From a virus, in the IMG/VR virus record IMGVR_UViG_3300025770_000008, positions 1 through 64,000 of that record: DNA of 64,000 nt; one strand, 5' to 3'. The notes beneath the pieces are model-generated. The model was not told the origin of the DNA, ran no database searches, and saw only the letters and a list, made by a program, of their open reading frames with translations. The position numbers and the translations under genes are program-made. This document shows, one piece after another, positions 3,311 through 58,581 of the stretch (positions are counted from its first letter, which is position 1; every line of letters starts with the position of its first letter).

Positions 3311-4168
3311 ATGCGCGAAGACATGCGCTACAAAGTCATCGAGCGGGGGCGCTTCGGTGACAATTCCAACCACTCGTCGAAGAGCCGGCGCCGGACGTTC
3401 CGGGGGCAGAGCGACGCCACGAACAAGGGCCGCATGCGGCCTGACTGGCGGGACTGCACCGGCTACGACCGGAAACAGCTCAGCGACACCCTCAACCCGC
3501 TGGTCCGGTACCTCCGGTCCTGCGTCAACCGGCAGTGGGACGCTGTGTGGTCCGAGATTTGTGCGGACCTCCGCGCCGGGTCGACCATGACCCAGCACGT
3601 GCGGGACCACATCACCGGCGACATCGTCACGCTCCACGTGGTGATGGACGGCAAGACGCCCATCAGCCTCCCGACCGAGAACGGCGGCGGGGGGAGCGTT
3701 GTCTATGGTTTGTGGGTCCACCCCACCAACGGGGTGCTGCGCTTCAACCAGAAGCCGCGTCGGTACCGTCGCGCGCCCACTCAGCCCTTCGCCACCCAGC
3801 GCGGGTGCCGCATCGTCGGTGACCTCCTGCTGGAGGAGGTCGCCGGAGTGTGGTTCATGTGGGACCTCGTTCCCGTCGAGGAGTCGCCTAACTACCGGGA
3901 GTCGACCCTGCAGCAGACGGTGGAGTCGAAGCGGTCGTGGCAGGCGAATGTCGTTCGGGGGCACACGTACCCCACTTCGGCCACCAGCCGCTACGTCAGC
4001 TGCGGTCGTCTCGGGATGCAGATTGCGACCCGGAACGACAACTGGAGCAACCGGCCCATGAGCGAGGTTCGGTTCGGGAACCTCCAGAACGAGTACGGCC
4101 GTCAGGCCGTCTGTCTCAACAAGCGGCAGATGAGCAAGAAGCAGAAGGCTCGCCTTCTGCCGTCGTAG
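3311..4168 (+). CDS. Hypothetical protein, 285 residues
   Basis: The start at 3311 has GGAGAAGAG upstream. The N-terminal 60 residues are very basic (SSKSRRRTFRGQ). A helical segment (LVRYLRSCVNRQWDAVWSE) follows, then a beta-rich region ending KKQKARLLPS. The basic ends suggest nucleic acid binding, but no family is recognised. A 9-bp hairpin (GCAGAAGGC with GCCTTCTGC) lies in the last codons. Confidence 0.7.
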   Translation: MREDMRYKVIERGRFGDNSNHSSKSRRRTFRGQSDATNKGRMRPDWRDCTGYDRKQLSDTLNPLVRYLRSCVNRQWDAVWSEICADLRAGSTMTQHVRDHITGDIVTLHVVMDGKTPISLPTENGGGGSVVYGLWVHPTNGVLRFNQKPRRYRRAPTQPFATQRGCRIVGDLLLEEVAGVWFMWDLVPVEESPNYRESTLQQTVESKRSWQANVVRGHTYPTSATSRYVSCGRLGMQIATRNDNWSNRPMSEVRFGNLQNEYGRQAVCLNKRQMSKKQKARLLPS

Positions 4169-4177
4169 GCGAAAGCC

Positions 4178-4210
4178 GAGGAGGGGTGGGCCGCAACCCG
4201 CTCCTTCTTA
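4178..4210 (+). terminator. Hairpin terminator
   Basis: GAGGAGGGGTGGG pairs with CCCGCTC and is followed by CTTCTTA. It closes the operon that begins at 1649. Confidence 0.5.
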
Positions 4211-4211
4211 G

Positions 4212-4439
4212 CTACAGCACTTCCTCACGACCGTCCCGCGCTATGAACACGATGTGCGGGTACACATGCCCCTCCCTGGACTCCTTCTCCCCGCAGGCAG
4301 GGCACGCGTACGGCGTCGAGCCCAGCTCTCTCAACGACCAGTTACTCCGGTCGAACCCCACACACTTCATCTCTTCTCCGCAGTCACAGAACAGCCGCCG
4401 CTGCACAACTTTCCCTGTGACCTGCTGGACCGTGCTCAT
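4212..4439 (-). CDS. Zinc-ribbon protein, 75 residues
   Basis: Two Cys pairs, CDCGEEMKC and CPACGEKE, flank a short spacer and form a typical zinc ribbon (about residues 18-50). A beta strand (YPHIVFIARDG) follows. Such ribbons often bind nucleic acid or serve as a structural fold. It is transcribed against its neighbours. Confidence 0.7.
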   Translation of the reverse strand: MSTVQQVTGKVVQRRLFCDCGEEMKCVGFDRSNWSLRELGSTPYACPACGEKESREGHVYPHIVFIARDGREEVL

Positions 4440-4476
4440 GCCAACGCTCTCTGATGGTGTGCCCCGTTGTACCAGT

Positions 4477-4491
4477 TATTAGCCGCTAATA
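4477..4491. promoter_or_regulatory. TATTAG-CTAATA dyad operator, copy 2
   Basis: TTATTAGCCGCTAATAA is extended by one base pair on each side. It lies between divergent genes and 18 bases upstream of a promoter. Confidence 0.7.
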
Positions 4492-4508
4492 ACCGCGAGA
4501 AAACCAGT

Positions 4509-4541
4509 GGCAAGAACAGACCGAAAAGAGGCATAAGGGTC
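4509..4541 (+). promoter_or_regulatory. Phage promoter, weaker variant
   Basis: GGCAAGAAC, spacer, then GAGGCATAAGGGTCCTG. The core ATAAG is kept but the AACTATG part has changed. GTAG-loop-CTAC can pair just downstream. Confidence 0.5.
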
Positions 4542-4601
4542 CTGTAGTTATGGGGCTACGGTTACCAACCAACGCCCATTCTCTAACGAAAGGTGGCCGC
4601 C

Positions 4602-4694
4602 GTGCTGCCCGACCCCGGGACCTTCTGGTCCCACATCTTCGCCGCCTCGGTCGTCTTGCTCTTCCTAGTCGTTGTGTGGCTAGGGGACGAGTGA
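4602..4694 (+). CDS. Small membrane peptide, 30 residues, GTG start
   Basis: GTG at 4602 follows GAAAGGTGG. The 30-residue product has a hydrophobic core (IFAASVVLLFLVVVWL) ending in GDE, so it is a single-span membrane peptide. It is the first gene after the promoter at 4509. Function is unknown. Confidence 0.5.
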   Translation: MLPDPGTFWSHIFAASVVLLFLVVVWLGDE

Positions 4695-4716
4695 CCCCAA
4701 CAACCTACGAGCATCA

Positions 4717-4992
4717 ATGCCCGACTTCACCGATGCAGACTACATTCGGCTCTTCAACGACGAAGGCTTTGTGGGGCGTCTACAGCCTTACATCGCCGAC
4801 TTCCTACTCAACCACCTGAAGGTCGACCTGAGCTACACACTCCGCGACGACGACTCTCCCGGCGGGGCGTACATACAAATCAACCCCGAGATGACTTTAG
4901 ACACCAGCATGGGCACGCGCTACCTTCCCGGTGGCGGGGTACGCATCCCGATCAGCGACATCAGCGCCCACCTCTTTCACCAGGACCGGTAA
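4717..4992 (+). CDS. Hypothetical protein, 91 residues
   Basis: An acidic soluble protein (MPDFTDADYIRLFNDEGF) followed by a beta-rich half. Its TAA stop overlaps the ATG of the next gene (TAATG). No family recognised. Confidence 0.65.
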   Translation: MPDFTDADYIRLFNDEGFVGRLQPYIADFLLNHLKVDLSYTLRDDDSPGGAYIQINPEMTLDTSMGTRYLPGGGVRIPISDISAHLFHQDR

Positions 4993-5198
4993 TGGACATT
5001 CCGCCGACCGCACTCGGGCTCGACATCGACTACAGGTACTGGGAGCGCCGTGTAATCGAGTCGCTAGGGGTGCCCTGGAACTTCTTCTTCGGGGACAGAG
5101 TGGCGAAGGTGGCGAGCTTCGGAGCCCCCGGAGGCTTCGGGAGTGCGCCCGTGCCTGCACCACCCGGCCCACCGCTCGACTACCATGTGGACGTATGA
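4992..5198 (+). CDS. Small protein with C-terminal YHVDV tag, 68 residues
   Basis: Ends LDYHVDV, one of about 18 proteins here with the His-x-Asp C-terminal motif. A Pro/Gly-rich linker (residues 44-62) separates the tag from the body, as if to expose it. The start of the next gene lies inside the last codons. Confidence 0.65.
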   Translation: MDIPPTALGLDIDYRYWERRVIESLGVPWNFFFGDRVAKVASFGAPGGFGSAPVPAPPGPPLDYHVDV

Positions 5199-5404
5199 GC
5201 GACATTGCATTCAAAGGCACCCCCAGCCGTAAGTACCGGCGCGGTAAACTCTGCAGGGTTCCCCGCGAAGTCCTTTACCCTGACGGGTCCAAGTGGACAG
5301 AGGCCAGCCGCCACGAAGTCCCCTTCACAGAAATCAGCTCCATCCGCATGAAGAAGCTACCCACGCTAGAGCCGGCGGAGCCCGAGTACCACACCGACGT
5401 CTAG
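5195..5404 (+). CDS. Small protein with C-terminal YHTDV tag, 69 residues
   Basis: Begins MSDIAFKGTPSRKYRRGK and ends EPEYHTDV. The body is basic and the tail acidic. It overlaps the upstream tagged gene by ATGA. No family recognised apart from the shared C-terminus. Confidence 0.65.
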   Translation: MSDIAFKGTPSRKYRRGKLCRVPREVLYPDGSKWTEASRHEVPFTEISSIRMKKLPTLEPAEPEYHTDV

Positions 5405-5421
5405 CCGGGGTGTACGTAAGA

Positions 5422-5455
5422 AATGGGGCTGCGCGAGTCGCGGCCCCATTCTTAG
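5422..5455. terminator. Hairpin terminator between convergent genes
   Basis: ATGGGGC-(13 bases)-GCCCCAT followed by TCTTA. It lies between a + strand unit and the 3-prime end of a - strand unit. Confidence 0.6.
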
Positions 5456-5467
5456 CTGGCACCTCGG

Positions 5468-5776
5468 TTACCCGCCGAGGCTATCCAGTATCGTCTTGGC
5501 CTCTGCCATGTCGTCGTAGTTGGGGTACTCCACCCCGAAGAGGACAAACTCCTCTTCGTCCACCACGTCCAGCTGTACCGCGCCGTCTCCGGTCAGGCCG
5601 ACACTGAGGCTGCACCAGTAGTCGGGGAACTCCTCGCTTGACGAGGAGAAGAACGCGGTATCCGCCTCGACAACGAACTTTCTGAAGACCAGTCCTATCG
5701 AGACAGCCTTAGCGTGGGCCGACCTCAGCATATCGAGCCTCTTCGTGAGCTTGTCCAGCTCCGCGAGTGGGTTCAT
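5468..5776 (-). CDS. Hypothetical protein, 102 residues
   Basis: The N-terminal half is helical and coiled-coil-like (MNPLAELDKLTKRLDMLRSA); the C-terminal half is acidic and beta-rich. Last gene of a three-gene - strand operon; its start overlaps the stop of the gene at 5773. Confidence 0.65.
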   Translation of the reverse strand: MNPLAELDKLTKRLDMLRSAHAKAVSIGLVFRKFVVEADTAFFSSSSEEFPDYWCSLSVGLTGDGAVQLDVVDEEEFVLFGVEYPNYDDMAEAKTILDSLGG

Positions 5777-5958
5777 TCCGTCTCCTCTGCGTGATGCAAC
5801 GAGTCCACCAGCTCGGCGATGAACACTTGCTCTGCCCTTGGATGCCGCCCTTTGTGGGCCAGCGGTACCTTCGCGATTAGAACCCCAGCCTCCGTTTCTG
5901 CCACGAGCTGGTCCCCGCCTTCGTGGGCACTCGCGGTATCGAACCGCAGCGTGACCAT
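5773..5958 (-). CDS. Hypothetical protein, 61 residues
   Basis: I chose the start MVTLRFDTASAHEGG because GAGAGGA lies nine bases upstream; a longer reading from 5988 is possible. The body is mostly beta. Middle gene of the - strand operon. Confidence 0.55.
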   Translation of the reverse strand: MVTLRFDTASAHEGGDQLVAETEAGVLIAKVPLAHKGRHPRAEQVFIAELVDSLHHAEETE

Positions 5959-6779: not shown

Positions 6780-7062
6780 CGAGATAGTGACCGCGGCTCG
6801 AAGGGCACGGAACGCTGCGGCCAAGCAACGCAAGCAAGCCGCCCGCGAAAAGAAGGAAAGACTCGCGAAGGCCGCCGCGATTGGGGGCACCCACAAGAAG
6901 GTCCTGGTGGGCGGTTCTGAGGAGAACCACCGCGCGTGGTTGGCCCAGGTCGCGAGCGACATCCAGCGGTGCGAAGACGAACACTTCCTGGCTGTGGTCG
7001 AGGACCGCATCGAGGAAGAGGCCCGCCTCAGGGACCCCGACGCGATGCACGCGGACCGCTAG
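6772..7062 (+). CDS. Basic coiled-coil protein, ends AMHADR, 96 residues
   Basis: The N-terminal half is a highly basic helix (RRARNAAAKQRKQAAREKK) and the C-terminal half an acidic helix. The end, DPDAMHADR, looks like a degenerate tag. It starts within the tag codons of the upstream gene. Function is unknown; the basic helix could bind nucleic acid. Confidence 0.65.
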   Translation: MFDEIVTAARRARNAAAKQRKQAAREKKERLAKAAAIGGTHKKVLVGGSEENHRAWLAQVASDIQRCEDEHFLAVVEDRIEEEARLRDPDAMHADR

Positions 7063-7064
7063 GC

Positions 7065-7379
7065 ATGGACCCAAGCGTCTTTGAGCCTCTCCCAGGCCAA
7101 TGGCTATCCAGTTACACCGCCGAGGGCATAAAGTGGGCCTACAGGCTACCTGGGCTCTCCCCTGGCGAAGCTGTAGACGCTGCCCTGGTGTGGCACCACA
7201 GCCTCAGCCGTAAGCTCCCCTACGACGTAGCCATTGTGCGCCACTCCCACCGTGGCAGCCTCGTACTCATCACCACACTACTCACTGGTGTTCCATGCCC
7301 TACCCAACTCTCCGCACTTGGACCGACCCCGACCACATCACCCGCACATCCTTTATGGACGGACAACAGTGTCTCGTGA
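7065..7379 (+). CDS. Hypothetical protein, 104 residues, overlaps the next gene by 85 bases
   Basis: Begins MDPSVFEPLPGQWLSSYTAE. The coding character looks good to about residue 77 (SLVLITTLLTGVP). The last 27 residues are low in order and lie over the start of a second good frame at 7295. Either the overlap is real or a frameshift joins the two; see findings. Confidence 0.5.
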   Translation: MDPSVFEPLPGQWLSSYTAEGIKWAYRLPGLSPGEAVDAALVWHHSLSRKLPYDVAIVRHSHRGSLVLITTLLTGVPCPTQLSALGPTPTTSPAHPLWTDNSVS

Positions 7380-7435
7380 CACTCCAGCCCTGGGACCTCA
7401 TCCAGCTCGCCCGCAGTGAGCACATCGACGTATGA
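7295..7435 (+). CDS. Tagged small protein, ends EHIDV, 46 residues
   Basis: Begins MPYPTLRTWTDPDHITRTSF and ends ARSEHIDV, carrying the shared tag. It lacks a good ribosome-binding site, which fits translation coupled to, or fused with, the gene at 7065. Confidence 0.5.
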   Translation: MPYPTLRTWTDPDHITRTSFMDGQQCLVTLQPWDLIQLARSEHIDV

Positions 7436-7473
7436 ACGTAAAACGTCCACATAGACGAATAGGCCCAAAATGA
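7432..7473 (+). CDS. Possible 13-residue minigene
   Basis: MNVKRPHRRIGPK is overlapped by ATGA at both ends: its start with the stop of the tagged gene, its stop with the start of 7470. The basic peptide may act only to pass ribosomes on. Support is positional. Confidence 0.3.
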   Translation: MNVKRPHRRIGPK

Positions 7474-8054
7474 CCCTTGCTGAACTCGACTTCTTTTCCG
7501 CCCTCCGCCACAAGGACTCAATCTCCCCCGCACCGCCCGAAGAAGCGGGAAACAGCCGCACGCCTCGGAAGGCCAGGGGCGCAGGCTCAGGGAGCCTGTA
7601 CCTCCAACCAGAGCATGGTCTCTACGCCGTCTGGCACGACCAGCACCCCGAGGAGTGCGAATTCATCACGGCCGCCAACTACCTCGACGCCGTGGTCTAC
7701 GGGGAAGACTATCTGGACATCGACGAAAAACACATGCGGGTCAGCTGGGTCGCCTACACCTTCCAGGAGGTGCTCCACCCCAGTAGCGAGCTGCGTTGGA
7801 ACGCCGCCATCTCGGCCATCAACGGCGGACCCACCGACCCCGACGAACCCGAGCGAGCCCGCGCTGGCTGCCTCATCCTCAACGTCGAACTCGACGAGTT
7901 CGATGACAACGACGGCTTTGGCTGGGTCTGGAGCGTCACGGGCGCGACAGAGCGCGATGGGTACAGCGGGACCAAAGAAGGTGCCAAGGCCCTCGCTGAG
8001 CGCGCGGCCAAGGCGTGGCTCAACAACTCCCTCAGCGTCTTCCCGTCGACATGA
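7470..8054 (+). CDS. Hypothetical protein, 194 residues
   Basis: After a disordered N-terminus (residues 1-45) comes an ordered acidic domain with WxxY/F-rich segments (GLYAVWHDQHPEECEF, RVSWVAYTFQEV). No family recognised. Its stop overlaps the next start (ATGA). Confidence 0.65.
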   Translation: MTLAELDFFSALRHKDSISPAPPEEAGNSRTPRKARGAGSGSLYLQPEHGLYAVWHDQHPEECEFITAANYLDAVVYGEDYLDIDEKHMRVSWVAYTFQEVLHPSSELRWNAAISAINGGPTDPDEPERARAGCLILNVELDEFDDNDGFGWVWSVTGATERDGYSGTKEGAKALAERAAKAWLNNSLSVFPST

Positions 8055-8461
8055 GTGAAGACCACAAGGACCGCCGAGAAGTCAACGGCACCATCCCCCT
8101 CAGTCTCACGGACCTCATCAACCTCCAAGGCGGGAAAGCCTTCTTCGAGTACATCCGGAAGCAGCTGCACGAGCCGGAGCTGGAGGGCATCAAGTACGAG
8201 CCCGGATGGCCAACCGACAACGGAGACCCTGTGCTCCACGTAACCGGCTGGGCGCCGGCCGGACCCAGGACGATGACCGCGCTCTACAAGGTAGTCATCC
8301 TCCAGACGATTCGCCTCGAAGGAGAACTGGAGCTAACCCACCCCATCGGGCGGGACCCTGACGACAGCTACTTCGACGACACCGACCCGCGCTTCACTGA
8401 GGATGTGGAATTCTACTCAGCTGAGTACATCATCACGCGAGTGGACGAGGAGGGCGAGTGA
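8051..8461 (+). CDS. Hypothetical protein, 136 residues
   Basis: An acidic soluble protein beginning MSEDHKDRREVNGTIPLSL. A helical segment (GGKAFFEYIRKQL) is followed by a beta-rich acidic C-terminus ending RVDEEGE. Coupled by overlap to both neighbours. Confidence 0.65.
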   Translation: MSEDHKDRREVNGTIPLSLTDLINLQGGKAFFEYIRKQLHEPELEGIKYEPGWPTDNGDPVLHVTGWAPAGPRTMTALYKVVILQTIRLEGELELTHPIGRDPDDSYFDDTDPRFTEDVEFYSAEYIITRVDEEGE

Positions 8462-8670
8462 GCAACAAGAACCAAACCCCCGAGATGCAGCGGGTGACTG
8501 CCGAGGCGGCCAAGGCCGCGTTCGAGGGCAACACCCCCGCCAAGGCCGAGGCCACAGAGACCTGCGTCCGGTGCAGTGGCCCCGCGACCGAATTCAAAGA
8601 CGAACTCTCCAAGCGGGAGTACGCCATCACCCGCTTCTGCCAGGAGTGCCAGGACGGCTATTTCGGCTGA
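8458..8670 (+). CDS. Zinc-binding protein with two CxxC pairs, 70 residues, GTG start
   Basis: CVRCSGPATEF and CQECQDGYFG form two CxxC knuckles about 27 residues apart, a small treble-clef or ribbon-like metal site. GTG overlaps the upstream TGA (GTGA). Function is unknown. Confidence 0.65.
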   Translation: MSNKNQTPEMQRVTAEAAKAAFEGNTPAKAEATETCVRCSGPATEFKDELSKREYAITRFCQECQDGYFG

Positions 8671-8672
8671 GG

Positions 8673-8687
8673 TATTAGCCGCTAATA
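8673..8687. promoter_or_regulatory. TATTAG-CTAATA dyad operator, copy 4
   Basis: GGTATTAGCCGCTAATACC has 9-bp arms. It overlaps the stop codon of the - strand gene at 8682. Confidence 0.7.
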
Positions 8688-8816
8688 CCGGGGCTTCTTG
8701 GCGAGTGCTTGCCGCCGCTTCTGCACGACGGCTTCCTTGAGCAGTTTCTTGAGGAAGTCGCGGCGTGTCCCTGCGCCCAGTACCAGCCCCGTAATCGACC
8801 CTGTTTTCTTCCGCAT
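8682..8816 (-). CDS. Small basic protein, 44 residues
   Basis: MRKKTGSITGLVLGAGTRRD, then KKLLKEAVVQKRRQALAKK, is strongly basic and helical and could bind nucleic acid. The TAG stop is supplied by the dyad. AGG lies close to the ATG, so initiation may be weak. Confidence 0.45.
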   Translation of the reverse strand: MRKKTGSITGLVLGAGTRRDFLKKLLKEAVVQKRRQALAKKPRY

Positions 8817-10027: not shown

Positions 10028-10471
10028 ATGTTTCGCGCAATCGTAGCGTGGATTATCGAAGGAATTGAGGAGGCGCTGCGGCGCCTCGAAAACTGGAACG
10101 AGCGCCGAGTGGCGCTCTCCGAGGTGCGAGAGGAGCGGACGGAGCAGATGCGCCGGCTCAACGCCCGGCTGGTGGGGTCATTCAGCGACCTCGTCGAGGT
10201 CGAGGCCCGGCTACCGCGCGAGGCCCGAGTGGTCTGCGAGGTGAAGGCGGCGGAGCTGGAGTGGCCGCTGGCCATCGCGCGAGCGAAGCAGGTCAGCGAT
10301 GGCTGCCTGCTCCGGGCGGCGGAGCTGGAGGTGAAAGCCTCCACGGCGGCCACCCACGGCACGGCCGGACTGTGCCGTGTCGCCGACCTGCGACGGCGTG
10401 CAAACGTGCTGCGAGAGGCAGCCGTGAGCATCCCCTCGCTAGCCCGCGCAGCACAGCACCTCACCGCCTAA
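10028..10471 (+). CDS. Coiled-coil protein, 147 residues
   Basis: An N-terminal amphipathic or weakly hydrophobic helix (MFRAIVAWIIEGIEEAL) is followed by almost unbroken Glu/Arg/Ala helices. Similar in style to the proteins at 985 and 13828. GAGGGAGAGAG precedes the ATG. A hairpin (CACACAC with GTGTGTG) lies in the preceding gap. Function is unknown. Confidence 0.65.
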   Translation: MFRAIVAWIIEGIEEALRRLENWNERRVALSEVREERTEQMRRLNARLVGSFSDLVEVEARLPREARVVCEVKAAELEWPLAIARAKQVSDGCLLRAAELEVKASTAATHGTAGLCRVADLRRRANVLREAAVSIPSLARAAQHLTA

Positions 10472-10472
10472 G

Positions 10473-10521
10473 TCCCCGCGTCCTGCGGGGGCAGCGCTGC
10501 CCTTCCTGGGCGCGCTTCTTA
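10473..10521 (+). terminator. Double hairpin terminator
   Basis: CCCCGC-GTCCT-GCGGGG and GCGCTGCCC with GGGCGCGC, followed by TTCTTA. Confidence 0.6.
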
Positions 10522-10523
10522 CC

Positions 10524-10560
10524 TGCAAGACCCCTACATGTTTTGGGCATAAGGACTATG
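10524..10560 (+). promoter_or_regulatory. Phage promoter with 5-prime hairpin and structured leader
   Basis: TGCAAGACC, spacer, then TTTTGGGCATAAGGACTATG. ATGGAGG-AACTCG-CCTCCAT forms a 7-bp hairpin at the transcript start. Further stems (CGTGC with GCACG, GGACC-ACTTGA-GGTCC) fill the 100-base leader of the lipoprotein genes. Confidence 0.7.
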
Positions 10561-10664
10561 GAGGAACTCGCCTCCATCAACCGTGCCCGAAGGGGTTAAG
10601 CACGGACCACTTGAGGTCCACAACCGGCACTCCGCACTGCGCGGGTGCTACAAGGAGGTGCGCC

Positions 10665-11180
10665 ATGCGTGCACTCGTTTATCTGTTCATCCTCGCTGGG
10701 ATTCAGGGCTGCGATGCCCCGGAGCCCGGTCTGCCCGGCGTGACCGAGCGGACCTTTTTGGTCAAGAACGTCGGGCAGGCGTTGACCCAACCCCAACTGA
10801 GCATCGTCACCGGTATCCCCGGCTCGACGAGCCCGGCGCCTGTCGAGTACATCGACGAGGCGTACAAGTGGGGGATGGACAGGATCCTCCCCCAGAAGGG
10901 CAGCCCGGACGACATCGCGCTCGTCGTCGGCTGGAATGAGCTACCGGGGACCAAGGTCGCCTTCACCAACAAGGGTGAGGGGGTCGTCATCCAAACCCCG
11001 GTCGGGGGAGCGTCGACCAACGACGTCCACGTGCCCACGGAGGAGGGGCGCTACATCCCGGGGCAGCGTCTCCATGTCGAGGGGTACATCCCGCAGGAAA
11101 TCACCCACGAGCAGCTGATGGCGCTCAAGGCCGACATCGCGGCGCTGAGTGAAGCCATAACCGAGGGGTACGTACCGTGA
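10665..11180 (+). CDS. Putative lipoprotein, 171 residues
   Basis: The N-terminus MRALVYLFILAGIQGC is a short lipoprotein signal with lipobox LAGIQGC-like cleavage before Cys16, predicting a lipid-anchored periplasmic or outer-membrane protein. The mature part is beta-rich with an acidic helical tail. AAGGAGG precedes the ATG. Its stop overlaps the GTG of the next, also exported, gene. Phage lipoproteins often block superinfection at the envelope; that role is inference. Confidence 0.7.
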   Translation: MRALVYLFILAGIQGCDAPEPGLPGVTERTFLVKNVGQALTQPQLSIVTGIPGSTSPAPVEYIDEAYKWGMDRILPQKGSPDDIALVVGWNELPGTKVAFTNKGEGVVIQTPVGGASTNDVHVPTEEGRYIPGQRLHVEGYIPQEITHEQLMALKADIAALSEAITEGYVP

Positions 11181-49032: not shown

Positions 49033-49346
49033 CCGCCCATCGACTGCTTCCCTTCAAGACCACATCGCTTCTCGGGGTTGGCCCGGGTCGCACATTGAAA
49101 CTCATCCGCAGGTCGGTCACTATTGACGGACTTGCACGCCTGACCTATGGGGGACTGGTACACACCGCAGAAGTCCTGAACGAAGATGCGCCATTGACGG
49201 CCGTGCTTACAACCACAGACACTTCCCCCCCGACGTACACGTACATGCTCAGCTTGCAGGGTGAAACCGCAGCCGCAGCAGAGAAAGAACTCAGAAAATG
49301 GATAACCTCAAGAACCTCGACCCCTCCGACGCCAAGGCCGCTCTGA
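49020..49346 (+). CDS. Hypothetical protein upstream of the ubiquitin-like gene, 108 residues
   Basis: ATG 49020 overlaps the upstream stop by 13 bases. Beta-rich with a Lys/Glu helix near the end (ETAAAAEKELRKWI). The last 16 codons overlap the ubiquitin-like gene. No family recognised; a partner of the modifier system is possible by position. Confidence 0.55.
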   Translation: MHGVTAHRLLPFKTTSLLGVGPGRTLKLIRRSVTIDGLARLTYGGLVHTAEVLNEDAPLTAVLTTTDTSPPTYTYMLSLQGETAAAAEKELRKWITSRTSTPPTPRPL

Positions 49347-49720
49347 AGGCCATGGACCGCGACCAGAAGGCGGCCTACGCGTCGCCCTGGACCAGCAAGA
49401 CGGGCATCTCCGCGTGGATCGAGGACCTGTCGCGCTTCACCTCGGCCAACACCACGACCGCCGCTGTGTCGAGCGGTGGCGGCAGCGGTGGCGCGTCCCG
49501 GGTCATCATCGACCGCGCCGGAAAGCGCAAGTTCGAGGTCGAGGCCGAAGCCGGGGTGAACCTGTTCCGCCTCTTGGCGGACAACAACGTCAACATCAGC
49601 GAGCGCGAGGTCTCCGTCATCAGGCCGGACATGTCCTCGACGATGGCCTCGAACACCACAACCCTCTCCGCGGGCACGTTCCGCGTTCAGGTGTCGCAGA
49701 AGGTGGAGGGCGGCTGCTAA
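49298..49720 (+). CDS. Ubiquitin-like modifier ending Gly-Gly-Cys, 140 residues
   Basis: Residues 1-65 are a helical and flexible N-terminal extension ending in a Ser/Gly linker (SSGGGSGGAS). Residues about 67-140 show the beta-grasp order: strand RVIIDRAG, strand KRKFEVEAEAG, helix VNLFRLLADNNVN, strand, loop, then the last strand TFRVQVSQKV leading to EGGC. A C-terminal Gly-Gly with one extra residue is the form expected of a ubiquitin-like precursor trimmed by a JAMM peptidase, then activated by an E1. E2-, JAMM- and E1-like genes follow. An intrinsic terminator directly downstream suggests it is made in excess. Activity is inferred. Confidence 0.8.
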   Translation: MDNLKNLDPSDAKAALKAMDRDQKAAYASPWTSKTGISAWIEDLSRFTSANTTTAAVSSGGGSGGASRVIIDRAGKRKFEVEAEAGVNLFRLLADNNVNISEREVSVIRPDMSSTMASNTTTLSAGTFRVQVSQKVEGGC

Positions 49721-49798: not shown

Positions 49799-51151
49799 TT
49801 GCGCATCGGCCTCATTGGCTTAGATGCGGGGGCAACTGACCGCGAGGTCGTGCAGGCCCTCGTTGACCGCTACAATACCGCCGCCAAAAAGGCGGGCACC
49901 GGGCTCACCCGCATGGTCGTCAACCTCCAAGCGGAAGCTGACGCCTTTCCCAATCTTATCGCCGACGCGATGGTGAAAACCGACGACGGAGAAGAAGCCA
50001 TCGCGGCGGCGAAGGTCGCCAAGGAAGCCGCACTCGAACAAAAGGCGCTTGCGGACGCTGACGTACTTGCCCTGCAGCAACGCGTATCGACCGCCAAGCG
50101 TGACGGAGAGCGGGCGGCCAGCAACCTTAGTGACGCCCATACCCAACTGCTACAGAACCAGCAGGCACACAGGCACGCCCTGAACCTGCTCCAGCGGCAC
50201 AACAGCAACCAAGCAAAGGTTGCGAAGCGACTGGGTGCCCTCAAGACCCGCATCGAAGCGGGTATGCCCTACCCCGAGGAAGACGAGAACGTCGGATACT
50301 TCCTGGCCCTCATCGACCGCCGGGCTGGAATCACCGTCATCGACCGGCCAACCTTCCTGGAAGTGTCCTTCCGCACCAAGCGCATCACACGCACCTGGGC
50401 GGAAACTTCGGAGGATGGTACGTGGCCCATTGATACCTACTTCCCCCGGCTCTCCGTGCGCATCCGACTGAACCAGGGGAATGTCTCTCGGCACGCGGGG
50501 GCGTACATCACTCCCTTTATTGACGAGCCCGTCGACCTTCTGACCGCCGGTATGGACTACTTCATGCCACATGCGAACAGCGGGGGCAGCCTCTGCTGTG
50601 GAAGCACCGGCTCGTCAGAGCTGCTAGACCACATGTCTGACGGGCGGTGGTTGGACGCGGCCATCCTGGTCTGCCACCTACTCAGTCACTACAACCACGC
50701 GGACCCGTACCTTGCGCTGAGCAACTGGACGGACTGCCACACGGACGAGGACGAATGTCCCTGTGGTCGTGGGGCGCCACACACCGCGAACGCTTGCCGC
50801 ACACCGCGCTGTTTTGTCTGCGCAGACACACTCCCTTCTCCCAAACCCGGGCAGACCCCCACAGTGGCGCACACCAACTGCCTCCGAACCGAAGCCAAAC
50901 GACAGGGCAACCCGTTTCCAGACGCCAAAGGCATCTGCGGGCAGCCCATCTTTCCCGACCTCCTCGGGTCGGCCGACACGAATCTCCAGCTGACCCAGAA
51001 TCTGGGCGGCCTACTCGAAAGGCTCAAGACGCGTTATGAGCGGAACCAAAACCGCGACAGCGGCCGAATTGAAGTTCACCCTGCCTCCCCTCCGATTCAA
51101 GCAGCAGGTCATGGATCGGATGATGCAGCTGGTCCGCACCTCCAACGGTGA
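49799..51151 (+). CDS. E2-like conjugating protein with coiled coil and Cys-rich tail, 450 residues, TTG start
   Basis: TTG 49799 is set by GAAGGAG five bases upstream. Residues 1-55 are a small alpha/beta segment, 65-150 an Ala/Glu/Lys coiled coil. Residues about 165-305 fit a UBC fold: strands, a Pro turn, then PHANSGGSLCCG (H258-x-N260 and Cys266/267), like the HPN...C active site of E2 enzymes, followed by a Trp and a helix (LDAAILVCHLLSHYNHADPY). Residues 313-361 have Cys/His pairs (CHTDEDECPC, CRTPRCFVC, H-x-x-C), a possible RING-like or ribbon zinc domain. Its last 116 bases overlap the JAMM gene. Assignment is by motif, not alignment. Confidence 0.7.
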   Translation: MRIGLIGLDAGATDREVVQALVDRYNTAAKKAGTGLTRMVVNLQAEADAFPNLIADAMVKTDDGEEAIAAAKVAKEAALEQKALADADVLALQQRVSTAKRDGERAASNLSDAHTQLLQNQQAHRHALNLLQRHNSNQAKVAKRLGALKTRIEAGMPYPEEDENVGYFLALIDRRAGITVIDRPTFLEVSFRTKRITRTWAETSEDGTWPIDTYFPRLSVRIRLNQGNVSRHAGAYITPFIDEPVDLLTAGMDYFMPHANSGGSLCCGSTGSSELLDHMSDGRWLDAAILVCHLLSHYNHADPYLALSNWTDCHTDEDECPCGRGAPHTANACRTPRCFVCADTLPSPKPGQTPTVAHTNCLRTEAKRQGNPFPDAKGICGQPIFPDLLGSADTNLQLTQNLGGLLERLKTRYERNQNRDSGRIEVHPASPPIQAAGHGSDDAAGPHLQR

Positions 51152-52622
51152 ATGCAGTTGGGCATGCGTCTGCGCGCCCAACGATGCCCGGCTCATCGTG
51201 GACATCATCGTCCCGAAGCAGGAAAACACCCGGGTCAGCACGATCTTCGACACGAAGGACGTGATGGCTCTGTGCGAGTCCGCCGGGTACACCATGGAGC
51301 GGCTCGTCGTGTGGGGCCACAGCCACGACGTCATGGAGTGCTTCTTCAGCGGCACTGACATCGCGACCGCCAAGAAGCTGGAGTGGGACATCCAGTACAG
51401 CCTCGTGCTGAACAAGAAGGTGGCGGCGAAGTACTTCGCCGGCAAGCCCATCCTGAAGGCGGACTACTACCTCCGCCTGGATATCTTCTACATGGGGCTG
51501 AACTTCACGGTCGGGGAGAAGCTCGAATTTTCCATCGACGTGGACGTGTCGTCGGAACTCAGCTGGGCGCAAATCACCCTGGAGGAGCAGGCCAGCTACG
51601 GGACTGCCCCCGTGACGGTCTACAAGCAGAAGAACCACGGGACCCCTGGGGCTCGTCCCGCCTACAACCACGCCACGGCGCGGCGGCTCGGGCTCACAGA
51701 CGATGACGACAGCAGCTACTGGCCCCAGTCGATGAACGGGCTGGTGGCAGCACATCGGGCTCGGCACGGCGGGAGTAGTGGTCCTTCCCAGCGTCACCTC
51801 CCCGCAGACCTCGCGGTCCTGCTGAGCTGGTCTGCGAACGCGCGCAGCAAGTCGGCCATCGACCTTCGGGAAACTCTGCCCTACATGGCCCACGTCCTCT
51901 ACTACGAAGGCTTCCTCAAGCCCTCGGACCTGGAGGGGCTGGAGAAAGCCGTCAAGGAAACCAGCCTCGCGGCCAACAGTGTCGACGAGTGGCACCTGCT
52001 CGATGCCTTCTGCAAGCAGGCCAAGGAGCGCGGGTCAGTCCTCAGCTGGTCTCAGACCGACTCCGAGTTCGAGATCATCGTCGCCAGCGAGTACAAGCGG
52101 GTGCAGTGCACCTACGACGACGCGAGCGGCTGGTGGATGGCGGGGGCGTCCGTCCACGGTCGGCGCGTGCTCCACGATGTGGACAAGGCGATGGACGGGA
52201 CCGAGGCGAACATGGCCGGCGGCTTCTGGAAAGCGAGGCCCATCGGCATCATGTGGGAGAAGCGCCCGCCGGAGTACATGGCCACCGGCTGCCTCTCCAA
52301 GAACCTCCGCGTCCGCGCGGGGCAGACGACCATCAGCATCTGGATGGGTGTTGGTGGGAAGAAGGCCCTAGACCAACTCAAGGACAACGAGTACGGCCTC
52401 GTTGCCATCGTCCCGGACAGCCTCGAAGCGGAGGGCTGGGCCGAGCTTGGGGCGCCTCGGGGTGAGGTGGCCACTCAGCCTCCGACGCCCGAGCCGGAGC
52501 CCCCGCTGGAGCTGCAGGAGGTTGTTGACGCGGAGACGGGGGAGGTCACGGCGGTGCCTCCGAAGAAGACCACCAAGAAGAAGACCACCAAGAAGAAGAC
52601 CACCAAGGAGGCAACGGCATGA
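51036..52622 (+). CDS. JAMM/JAB peptidase with large C-terminal region, 528 residues
   Basis: The N-terminal domain has Glu39 (NGECSWACV) and WGHSHDVMECFFSGTD, a perfect JAMM motif (His95-x-His97-x7-Ser105-x2-Asp108) that binds catalytic zinc. JAMM enzymes cut after the Gly-Gly of ubiquitin-like proteins, so it may mature the modifier or remove it from targets. Residues 150-490 are unrecognised and far longer than a minimal JAB protein. The last 20 residues are three KKTTK-type repeats. Stop overlaps the E1-like start (ATGA). Confidence 0.85.
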   Translation: MSGTKTATAAELKFTLPPLRFKQQVMDRMMQLVRTSNGECSWACVCAPNDARLIVDIIVPKQENTRVSTIFDTKDVMALCESAGYTMERLVVWGHSHDVMECFFSGTDIATAKKLEWDIQYSLVLNKKVAAKYFAGKPILKADYYLRLDIFYMGLNFTVGEKLEFSIDVDVSSELSWAQITLEEQASYGTAPVTVYKQKNHGTPGARPAYNHATARRLGLTDDDDSSYWPQSMNGLVAAHRARHGGSSGPSQRHLPADLAVLLSWSANARSKSAIDLRETLPYMAHVLYYEGFLKPSDLEGLEKAVKETSLAANSVDEWHLLDAFCKQAKERGSVLSWSQTDSEFEIIVASEYKRVQCTYDDASGWWMAGASVHGRRVLHDVDKAMDGTEANMAGGFWKARPIGIMWEKRPPEYMATGCLSKNLRVRAGQTTISIWMGVGGKKALDQLKDNEYGLVAIVPDSLEAEGWAELGAPRGEVATQPPTPEPEPPLELQEVVDAETGEVTAVPPKKTTKKKTTKKKTTKEATA

Positions 52623-53308
52623 GCGAAGAACCCAACTACCACGCGCGGTACTCCACAGTGCTCGACGTCAAGAGCGCCAAGGAGCACGGCATCCTGGTCA
52701 TCGGGGCGGGGTCCATCGGGAGCTGGCTGGTCCGGGCGCTGGTCCGCACCGGATTCGAGAACGTCACGGTGATGGACTTTGACGTGGTCGACAACGTCAA
52801 CGTCTACCCGCAGGGGTACGGCCTTGGTGACGTAGGCTTGGACAAGGTCGAGGCACTATACGAGGGCATCGGGGCGACTCTCGGCGTCGAAATCAAGCCG
52901 GTCGTCGACAAGTTCGAGTCGAAGGAGCAGGTGCCGGAGGGCACCAGCTACATCATCCCCGCGGTCGACTCGCTGGCAGTCCGGCAGCAGGTGTTCGAGC
53001 AGGCGTGTCTTCTGCCCGCCACCGAGCTGGTGCTGGATGCCCGGATGGGTGCTCGGCACGGTTCCATCCACGCGGCCTGGATGGAGGACACGGAGGGGGT
53101 TTTCGAGCGGTACCCGCTGTCGTTCGACGCGACCGGCGTCTCCCCGCTGCCCTGCACCGAGCGCAACACCCCATTCTGCGGGATGATGATCGGTGCCGCG
53201 TTGGCGGGGTACGTCACCAGCGCCTTTCTTGGCGAGCAGGAGAAGCTGTATCAGCGCTACAACTTCTCGCTGTTCAACCCCGCTGGCCTCCTCATCTCGG
53301 TCGACTAG
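52619..53308 (+). CDS. ThiF/E1-like activating enzyme, 229 residues
   Basis: A Rossmann nucleotide-binding start (GILVIGAGSIGSWLVRALV, GxGxxG at 29-35) is followed by VMDFDVVDNVNVYPQ, the Asp-x-Asp and Asn/Gln pattern of E1-type adenylation domains. Asp117 lies in IIPAVDSLAVR. A late Cys (LPCTERNTPFC, Cys179) is placed like the E1 thioester cysteine. It would adenylate the modifier C-terminal Gly and pass it to the E2-like protein. No extra domains, so it is of minimal ThiF/MoeB type. Confidence 0.85.
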   Translation: MSEEPNYHARYSTVLDVKSAKEHGILVIGAGSIGSWLVRALVRTGFENVTVMDFDVVDNVNVYPQGYGLGDVGLDKVEALYEGIGATLGVEIKPVVDKFESKEQVPEGTSYIIPAVDSLAVRQQVFEQACLLPATELVLDARMGARHGSIHAAWMEDTEGVFERYPLSFDATGVSPLPCTERNTPFCGMMIGAALAGYVTSAFLGEQEKLYQRYNFSLFNPAGLLISVD

Positions 53309-53311
53309 CCG

Positions 53312-54028
53312 GTGGCCATAGAAGTTGAGCTGGAGCCGCTCTTCCGCTCCGCAATCGTCCCCGCCTTTGAATTCCGGTATTTCCCGGAGGACAGAGAAGG
53401 CGCGCGGCTTCCCCCCATCGACATACACTTCGTAAGGAGCGTGCTCGACGGGGAGGCCGTGTACATGGGGGTGCCCCTGGACAAACGGGGGTTCGCGCGG
53501 GCTCGGGGAGTCATCATCATGAAGCCGGACGCCATGATGATAGGCCCCCGTGCGTTGAGCTATGTGCTCAGCGGGGGTTGGGCGCCCAATAACGCCACAG
53601 AGACCAGAGCCACCAACCGCGGTGCCAAGGATAGGTTGTTCACGACCTTCTGGCAGGCGCTGATGGCACACGCAACGAACAAGAGCGCTCAGGGCCCAGC
53701 AGTACTGGGAAAGACCCTCAGCTCATACCTCCAGGTCAATGTCGACGTGGCGGAGGGCGTGCTCTCATCTGACCAGCTTGAGGATCTGCGAGACCTCAGC
53801 TGCCCTCAATGGCTCGCAGACGCCCTGGTTCACGCCGGGGTGGTCCCAGTCATCAATCCCAGCGATGTCGCGAACCGCTTCATCAAAGGCGCCCACACCA
53901 CCGGGCCGTGGAATGCCCACGCGGACACTCAGGTCGCGTCCTACAGCGTCACTATCGGGGTGACGCAATACCTCAAGAGGCACTCCATCACCTACCCGCC
54001 CTACCAGGGTCGTCGTATTAGCCGCTAA
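53312..54028 (+). CDS. Hypothetical protein, last gene of the ubiquitin-like operon, 238 residues, GTG start
   Basis: GTG 53312 follows the E1-like stop by three bases. Alpha/beta N-terminal half (LFRSAIVPAFEFRYFPEDRE, RARGVIIMKPDAMMIGPRAL) and helical second half. Not recognised; it could be a target adaptor or another ligase part by position. Its TAA stop lies inside the dyad at 54016. Confidence 0.65.
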   Translation: MAIEVELEPLFRSAIVPAFEFRYFPEDREGARLPPIDIHFVRSVLDGEAVYMGVPLDKRGFARARGVIIMKPDAMMIGPRALSYVLSGGWAPNNATETRATNRGAKDRLFTTFWQALMAHATNKSAQGPAVLGKTLSSYLQVNVDVAEGVLSSDQLEDLRDLSCPQWLADALVHAGVVPVINPSDVANRFIKGAHTTGPWNAHADTQVASYSVTIGVTQYLKRHSITYPPYQGRRISR

Positions 54029-56973: not shown

Positions 56974-58581
56974 ATGAGCGCCAAAGAACAGCTTGGCGTG
57001 TATCTCGACGCTGCGTACCCGGTCCTCGCGATTCAGTCGCACGAAGAGGACCGGGTCGAGGCAGCCATCCTCGAACACATAAGGAGTGGAGACGAGGTGG
57101 AGAACGGCCGCACGGCCGTGGTCCGCTGGTCGTTGAGCCAAGCTGTGCAGACCTTGTACAGCCCCGAGCCTGATAAGGCCGTTGACGACAACTCGGTGAA
57201 GTCCCCAGTAGGTGCCCTGCAGTACATCAACTCCCGCCTCGATTCGAGTGGTGGGCAGGTTGATGCGTGGGTCTGGATACTGAGGGACTTCTGCCATTTC
57301 CTTACTACCGGGAATGCCTACCCAATCCTCCGGCAGCTGAAAGATATAGCGCAGAAGATATCGACGCAGGGGTTGCCCCACAGCATCATCATCGTTGACG
57401 CTGAGGTGAACATCCCCAAACGGCTAGAGAAGACCGTCACGGTCATGCACTGGCCCCTACCAACCCGTGAAGAGCTGACCGACATCGTGACGATGTACGG
57501 GGACAGCCAAGAACTTGAGCTAACACCCGTCCAGGTGTGGGAGGTCAGCGGGGCCTCACTGGGTCTGACTATTCATGAGGTCGGTAACGCCCTCGCCAGC
57601 AGCTTCTGCTCAACCGGCCGCTTCGACCCGCGGATAATCACGGCAGAGAAGAAGGGCATCATCAAGCGGAGCGGGTTCCTTGAGTTTTGGGACTCTTTGA
57701 ACGGTCTTGAGTCCGTGGGTGGCATGGGCACCCTCAAGAGCTGGCTGGGGCAGCGGAAGCTTGCTTTCTCGCAAGAAGCGAGGGAATACCAGCTGCCTCT
57801 CCCCAAGGGGCTGCTACTTGTCGGGGTTCCCGGCGGTGGCAAGAGTTGGGTAGCCAAAGCCATCGGCGGCGAGTGGAACCTCCCCGTGGTCCGACTGGAC
57901 CTGGGCAAAATCATGGGCAGCTACCTCGGACAGTCCGAGAAGCAGCTCCGTGAGGCGCTTCAGCTTGCTGAGGTAATCAGCCCTTGTGTGCTCTGGGTGG
58001 ATGAGCTTGAGAAGGGTATGGGCAGCGGCGGCGGGGAGAGGGACGGAGGTACCTCGGACCGCGTCTTCGGCACATGGTTGACGTGGATGCAGGAGAAGAC
58101 CTCTCCCGTGTTCGTGGTGGCCACGGCGAACGACGTGTCAAAGCTACCGCCTGAAGCCCTGCGCGCTGGTCGCTTCGACAGCATCTTCTTCGTCGACCTC
58201 CCCAACACCGTCGAGCGCAAGGAGATTCTCTCGATTCACCTCCGTGCTCGGGGGCGGGATGGGGGGAACTACGACCTCGACCTCCTCGCTCAGAAGAGCG
58301 CGGGCTACACGGGGGCGGAGATAGAGACCCTCATCGAGAGCGCCATGTTCTCCGCCTTTGCTGAGAGCCGTGAGTTCAACGAGAACGACATCATCGCTGC
58401 CCAAACAGTAGTGGTGCCTATCTCACGGACGATGAAGGAGAAACTGGAGAACCTTCGCTCGTGGGCGGAGGGCCGAGCCGTATACGCTACGGCGCCTGAA
58501 GAGGATGCTGTCCCTGCCGGGCCTACCGGTACTCGCGTCGGGCGGCTCAAACGAGGAAGTCGAGGAAGAAGGACTCAATGA
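56974..58581 (+). CDS. Ycf46-like AAA+ ATPase, 535 residues
   Basis: C-terminal AAA+ module: Walker A GVPGGGKSW (284-292), Walker B CVLWVDELEK (338-347), sensor 1 in VATAND (about 386), and ALRAGRFD (Arg finger region, 396-402). The N-terminal 240 residues (SHEEDRVEAAI, then VHWPLPTREEL-like features) match the long N-domain of Ycf46-type ATPases rather than FtsH or Cdc48. ATP-driven remodelling of proteins is the expected role. In bacteria this family is often found with DUF1257 and DUF2997, both encoded just downstream. Confidence 0.8.
   Translation: MSAKEQLGVYLDAAYPVLAIQSHEEDRVEAAILEHIRSGDEVENGRTAVVRWSLSQAVQTLYSPEPDKAVDDNSVKSPVGALQYINSRLDSSGGQVDAWVWILRDFCHFLTTGNAYPILRQLKDIAQKISTQGLPHSIIIVDAEVNIPKRLEKTVTVMHWPLPTREELTDIVTMYGDSQELELTPVQVWEVSGASLGLTIHEVGNALASSFCSTGRFDPRIITAEKKGIIKRSGFLEFWDSLNGLESVGGMGTLKSWLGQRKLAFSQEAREYQLPLPKGLLLVGVPGGGKSWVAKAIGGEWNLPVVRLDLGKIMGSYLGQSEKQLREALQLAEVISPCVLWVDELEKGMGSGGGERDGGTSDRVFGTWLTWMQEKTSPVFVVATANDVSKLPPEALRAGRFDSIFFVDLPNTVERKEILSIHLRARGRDGGNYDLDLLAQKSAGYTGAEIETLIESAMFSAFAESREFNENDIIAAQTVVVPISRTMKEKLENLRSWAEGRAVYATAPEEDAVPAGPTGTRVGRLKRGSRGRRTQ

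Follow-up and report, generated by a model that had tools for sequence, protein, structure and literature searches.

Judged by its genes, a bacterial virus appears to carry a complete ubiquitin tagging machinery in miniature. The window analyzed here, 64,000 nucleotides in length, is part of the 142,974-bp IMG/VR virus record IMGVR_UViG_3300025770_000008 and includes a gene (49799..51151; this and all window features below lie on the plus strand) for an E2-like protein of 450 amino acids that combines a coiled coil, a UBC core and a Cys/His-rich tail. We consider it very probable that this gene encodes the E2 of a phage ubiquitin-like protein (Ubl) conjugation pathway, that the pathway is encoded with replication genes, and that the protein carries a zinc-type recruitment module and not a RING E3.

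Results

The open reading frame of the E2-like protein starts with TTG at 49799, with GAAGGAG just upstream, and its stop codon ends at 51151. The protein contains PHANSGGSLCCG, with cysteines at positions 266 and 267, and is the sole member of the phage E2 family that we found in the 143-kb record. An E2-like gene had been proposed here from the letters alone; the reading frame is present, and the original prediction described it correctly save for two Cys spacings in the tail. The coiled coil that it placed before the core is supported as well: a home-made heptad heuristic marks amino acids ~78-154 (50030..50260) as a helical, heptad-like stretch free of proline, and weak Pfam matches of coiled-coil type (Tropomyosin, Lipoprotein_6) reach amino acids 65-158. 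The same heuristic finds heptad-like stretches ahead of the core in most E2 relatives, and thus the coiled coil probably belongs to the E2 architecture, where it would probably dimerize the protein or dock partners.

The UBC core (amino acids ~164-312; 50288..50734) was recognized by profile and by structure prediction. An E2-core profile built from the relatives, in which the window protein was never included, matches the window E2 at E=6e-9 over amino acids 185-305. When the core profile of the family, window protein included, was compared with the PDB, all 45 matches at E<=10 were E2s or E2 fusions or derivatives; each match is weak by itself (E 0.09-1.5), and unanimity of this kind would not be expected by chance. 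With the tails left in the profile, 7 of 8 and 5 of 7 PDB matches were E2s. The AF2 model of the core has a pLDDT of ~70-88, and a second AF2 run on the core only was no better than the first. In two separate AF2 models the top VIA-align matches were nearly all of UBC, UEV or UFC1 type, at low Z (3-5.7), and Foldseek returned no significant match for the E2 models. The original prediction had made its claim depend on a UBC fold; the VIA-align ranking agrees with that fold, but with the low Z and the Foldseek result the fold by itself is suggestive. Family searches of the E2 in Pfam, PHROGs, NCBIfam and PADLOC assigned no family, and neither tblastn against collections of phages and plasmids nor scanning viral contigs with the single sequence gave a match. 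Together, the profile, operon and fold evidence leaves the E2 assignment well supported.

The relatives of the E2 are all distant, at roughly 12-23% identity in the alignment, and three residues, P257, C266 and G268, are invariant across the 25 aligned E2 proteins. The active-site column of the family aligns with the catalytic Cys of UBC domains. Position 267, a cysteine in the window, is L, W, F, I, V, A or M in the relatives. The adjacent cysteines had been noted correctly and the choice between them left open; as C266 is invariant and position 267 variable, C266 (50594..50596) is the active-site candidate. An inactive UEV- or RWD-like core, serving as a binding platform only, would fit the UEV domains among the structural matches, but the invariance of Cys266 and Gly268 in such divergent proteins and a P-x8-C spacing as in UBC domains make this the least probable of the readings weighed here.

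The motif region reads M256-P257-H258-ANSGGSL-C266-C267-G268. The HPN motif of E2s is absent; MPH stands at its site (50564..50572), with Met in place of the first His, and the relatives have HPH or variants, HPH in most. Among eukaryotic E2s, HPH is reported to occur in the Ube2w family only (PMC4630614), and UBE2J2 has no HPN motif (PMC9527308). Since UBE2W has HPH and UBE2J2 lacks HPN, the motif is not strictly defining for an E2. UBE2W modifies N-terminal amino groups (PMC9527308), and the HPH motif may hint at a similar target chemistry, which by analogy is only a lead.

Immediately upstream of the E2 gene lies a gene for a Ubl of 140 amino acids (49298..49720) with a beta-grasp domain at amino acids ~68-139 and the C-terminus ..KVEGGC. 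The relatives' Ubl profile, in which the window protein was never included, matches it at E=1e-3, and the alignment takes in the terminal GG. By eye, the N-terminal ~50 amino acids of this Ubl (49298-49490) look like the helical tail at the C-terminus of the Ubl of the crAss-like phage cr85_1, as if an extra domain had switched sides. Downstream lie a JAB/JAMM peptidase of 528 amino acids (51036..52622; HSHDVMECFFSGTD; Pfam Prok-JAB, 9e-4), with its JAMM motif H-x-H-x7-S-x2-D at 51318..51359, and an E1/ThiF-type adenylating enzyme of 229 amino acids (52619..53308; Pfam ThiF, 6.6e-18). Profiles of the relatives, built without the window proteins, match the JAB at 2e-14 and the E1 at 5e-46. The predicted catalytic cysteine of the E1, Cys179 in PCTERNTP (53153..53155), is invariant in the alignment and pCt is conserved in the profile; furthermore, the window E1 aligns with SUMO-activating subunit 2 across the region of the Cys (E~1e-4). 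With the Ubl upstream and JAB and E1 downstream, the E2-like gene sits in a Ubl-E2-JAB-E1 operon. Directly after the E1 comes an ORF of 238 amino acids (53312..54028), listed on synteny only, in the same place as ORFs in cr85_1 and the Flavobacterium phage Fpv3. The first 116 bp of the JAB gene lie within the 3' end of the gene for the E2, in another frame (51036-51151), and a similar overlap of 125 bp is present in Fpv3.

A permissive tblastn with the E1 led to cr85_1 and to Flavobacterium phages. The gene order of cr85_1 and Fpv3 is that of the window: Ubl-like, E2-like, 'metalloprotease', 'ThiF' and a further ORF. An alignment of three E1s then recovered 215 relatives in viral contigs, for 80 of which the loci were taken; with cr85_1 and Fpv3 we examined 82 viral loci, all reached via the E1 or annotated phage homologues. 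Ubl, E2, JAB and E1 are present together in 25 of the 82, and a crAss-type set of E2-like protein, JAB and E1 in 48, while four have the E1 only and five are partial; some loci are near-identical, so these counts are not independent events. The JAMM motif is kept in 71 of 73 JABs, and Cys-[TSGA] is found in the C-terminal part of 74 of 79 E1s. That the crAss-type E2-like proteins are related to the window E2 family is likely on the evidence of synteny, an active-site motif that aligns and a single hhalign comparison (p=0.0013, Prob 18%).

Several loci show further arrangements. In L016 the Ubl gene (4459-4875) codes for a phage di-Ubl precursor with two ubiquitin-like units in tandem (..VKGGSEE.. 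/ ..VEGGQ), and a second E2-like protein (7609-8781) follows the E1. L013 encodes an E2-like protein (4279-5922) with apparent pentapeptide repeats ahead of the UBC core, and L019 has two E1/ThiF-like genes (6998-7663 and 10125-10703) on either side of Ubl, E2 and JAB. One Planctomycetota locus (L002) was rejected as an operon, its gene being a ThiF/MoeB of the usual kind with a rhodanese-like terminus.

The E1 genes of cr85_1 (L009:6926-7696) and Fpv3 (L010:6932-7618) are annotated as thiamine biosynthesis ThiF, yet both stand in operons of Ubl-conjugation type, and the annotation looks misleading. It bears on another reading, in which Ubl, ThiF and JAB serve a ThiS/MoaD-like sulfur transfer with the E2-like protein as a scaffold. 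Besides the thiamine annotation of the phage ThiF homologues, matches of the E1 to ThiF/TcdA and of several Ubl relatives to Pfam ThiS (9e-8 for that of L016) agree with a sulfur carrier. Nearly every operon, however, has an E2 with an invariant Cys, and sulfur-metabolism genes are absent among the neighbors inspected, so we hold this reading to be very unlikely and retain Ubl conjugation.

In the window, genes for ParB-like, AAA+ ATPase, UvsX-like and NrdG-like proteins are found near the operon. Genes for primase, exonuclease, helicase, recombinase, uracil-DNA glycosylase or RNR lie near the operon in the window, cr85_1, Fpv3 and loci L011, L018 and L026. These replication and nucleotide neighbors suggest that the operon acts during takeover or replication and not in tail assembly. 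The AAA+ gene (phrog_8638; 56974-58581) lies near the Ubl operon, and a related AAA+ gene lies near a Ubl/JAB/E1 set in another locus (L082:2857-4299). We left it out of the operon, since homologues from mycobacterial and Pseudomonas phages and from loci L003-L005 come without ThiF or operon. A terminase search with two family models, PF03237 and phrog_2 (the latter presumably a terminase family), found none, and the viral nature of the record rests on IMG/VR and on phage-type genes.

The original prediction counted at least eight Cys/His in 50 residues after the core, and we count ten in amino acids 313-361 (50735..50881). Its spacings C-x-C and C-x4-C-x2-C were accurate, while its C-x7-C-x-C is in fact C-x6-C-x-C and its H-x3-C is H-x2-C. 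These residues are C313, H314, C320, C322, H328, C333, C338, C341, H358 and C361, plus C380. Not one of 5000 shuffles of the window E2 reached its nine Cys in 80 residues, so amino acid composition does not account for the cluster. At least seven Cys in 60 amino acids are found in 5 of 25 E2 clusters and, among the 755 other genes that these loci contain, in 2 (Fisher p ~4e-7). A C-x2-C-x(4-8)-C-x-C unit recurs in the E2s of L015, L042 and L057, C-terminal to the core, and of L012, N-terminal to it, and was seen in only three other ORFs among 4248; the C-x6-C-x-C of the window resembles half of this unit. Locus L074 encodes three E2-like proteins (3646-4254, 4984-5877 and 7919-8461) with Cys pairs in each C-terminal tail. 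We conclude that the tail is a real, recurring module which, from its Cys/His density, probably binds metal, and it may help to select tagging targets.

The module had been proposed as a possible built-in E3. In such an E2/E3 hybrid the tail would activate the E2~Ubl bond or bind substrate, and a separate E3 would be unnecessary. The E2 and the Cys/His tail of that proposal stand, and three observations agree with the hybrid: no E3-like gene was recognized in the operon, Cys-rich modules are far more frequent on E2s than on other genes, and the tail of a 297-amino-acid E2-like protein of L074 has weak RING-like and ZZ-like Pfam matches (E 0.005 and 0.06, below cut-off). The ligase role fared less well. 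A RING C3HC4-like cross-brace spacing is absent from the window E2 under both a strict and a relaxed pattern (any Cys/His as ligand), and the comparison of the tail with RING-type profiles, which had been suggested as a check, gave no Pfam match at E<=10, neither to RING, U-box or other zinc fingers nor to any other family. Moreover, many sister E2s with the same E1 and JAB partners have no Cys tail. The AlphaFold pLDDT of the tail is mostly <50. Characterized prokaryotic Ubl systems, Bil among them, are not known to include an E3, which also argues against the hybrid. These results support a metal-binding accessory module; the tail may act as an E3, but we judge the hybrid unlikely. The most elaborate version, a self-contained phage pathway with an HPH-type E2, possibly for protein N-termini, and a non-RING zinc ligase module on a single polypeptide, as an undescribed kind of E2-E3 hybrid spread through unrelated tailed phages, seems to us improbable to a slightly greater degree.

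Alternatively, the tail may be a zinc domain that binds nucleic acid or the replication complex and places the E2 at replicating phage DNA. The repeated location of the operon beside primase, exonuclease, helicase, RNR or recombinase genes is in line with this, as are the CxxC and HxxC knuckles of the tail, which are zinc-ribbon-like. On the other hand, no DNA-binding profile match was found for the tail, and tail-less E2s occur in the same type of neighborhood, so we regard this role as a tentative possibility and keep the broader reading of a recruitment module.

Discussion

Conserved catalytic motifs, read with knowledge of Bil and other systems, suggest how the pathway could work. The JAB would trim the Ubl precursor (..GG|C), exposing GG. 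The E1 would then adenylate the Ubl, take it on Cys179 and hand it to Cys266 of the E2, which would move it onto an amino group of a target; the JAB could also strip the Ubl from the target. The tail is probably a zinc-stabilized accessory that brings substrate, nucleic acid or Ubl near the active site, and the operon probably comes into play at takeover or replication.

Ubiquitin-like conjugation in bacteria is an antiphage defense. The presence of an entire cascade in phages, among them crAss-like phages from the human gut, raises the question of what phages tag. Additionally, the phage operons are compact, testable systems for E2 function without classical E3s and for modification of N-termini by HPH-type E2s. 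In the open-access literature searched, a coverage outside which most subscription papers and preprints fall, a phage Ubl pathway was not described.

Iyer, Burroughs and Aravind predicted operons of this kind, with Ubl, JAB, E1 and E2, in bacteria in 2006 (PMC1779556). The gene arrangement of their type 6d, an adjacent Ubl with C-terminal Gly, JAB, E1 and E2, is found in the window; type 6d is further marked by a JAB-N domain with conserved Arg/Trp and by an alpha-helical partner protein. Type 6d and its relatives are bacterial and plasmid/ICE-borne (PMC1779556), whereas the present set is in phages, and the phage E2 differs from type 6d in its coiled coil, its HPH-type motif and, often, a Cys-rich module. 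Pfam Prok-E2 and PRTRC models gave no match to the window E2. Membership in the PRTRC group, considered because of the nearby ParB-like gene, was rejected: PRTRC_ThiF scored 39.5 bits against a cut-off of 144.75, and neither Ubl nor E2 had a PRTRC match.

UBE2W and most phage relatives alike carry HPH at the position of HPN, with the spacing unchanged (PMC4630614), but the window has MPH and the rest of the sequence is remote. The antiphage system Bil (BilABCD) likewise has four components, Ubl, E2, JAMM DUB and E1. BilB has a CEHH motif of Cys, +6 Glu, +8 His and +13 His (PMC11354881); the window E2 departs from this spacing, with S272, E274 and M279 at those positions. BilD combines an inactive and an active adenylation domain, whereas the window E1 is a single adenylation domain of 229 amino acids, and Bil is a host defense locus whereas the present operon is virus-encoded.

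The CBASS Cap2 (E1-E2) and CdnG-E2 systems have an E1 domain similar to the window E1 (~1e-11), and 8hsb is an E2 fold match. In the window, however, E1 and E2 are separate proteins and the Ubl has a gene of its own; the operon neighborhood showed no CD-NTase. African swine fever virus I215L (7wlh), found among both profile and structure matches, is a virus-encoded UBC protein too. It is a stand-alone E2 of eukaryotic type that uses host ubiquitin, and it comes without the Ubl, E1 and JAB of the phage operon. Overall, the phage set differs from the known bacterial operons in its E2 family, its E1 architecture and its carriers.
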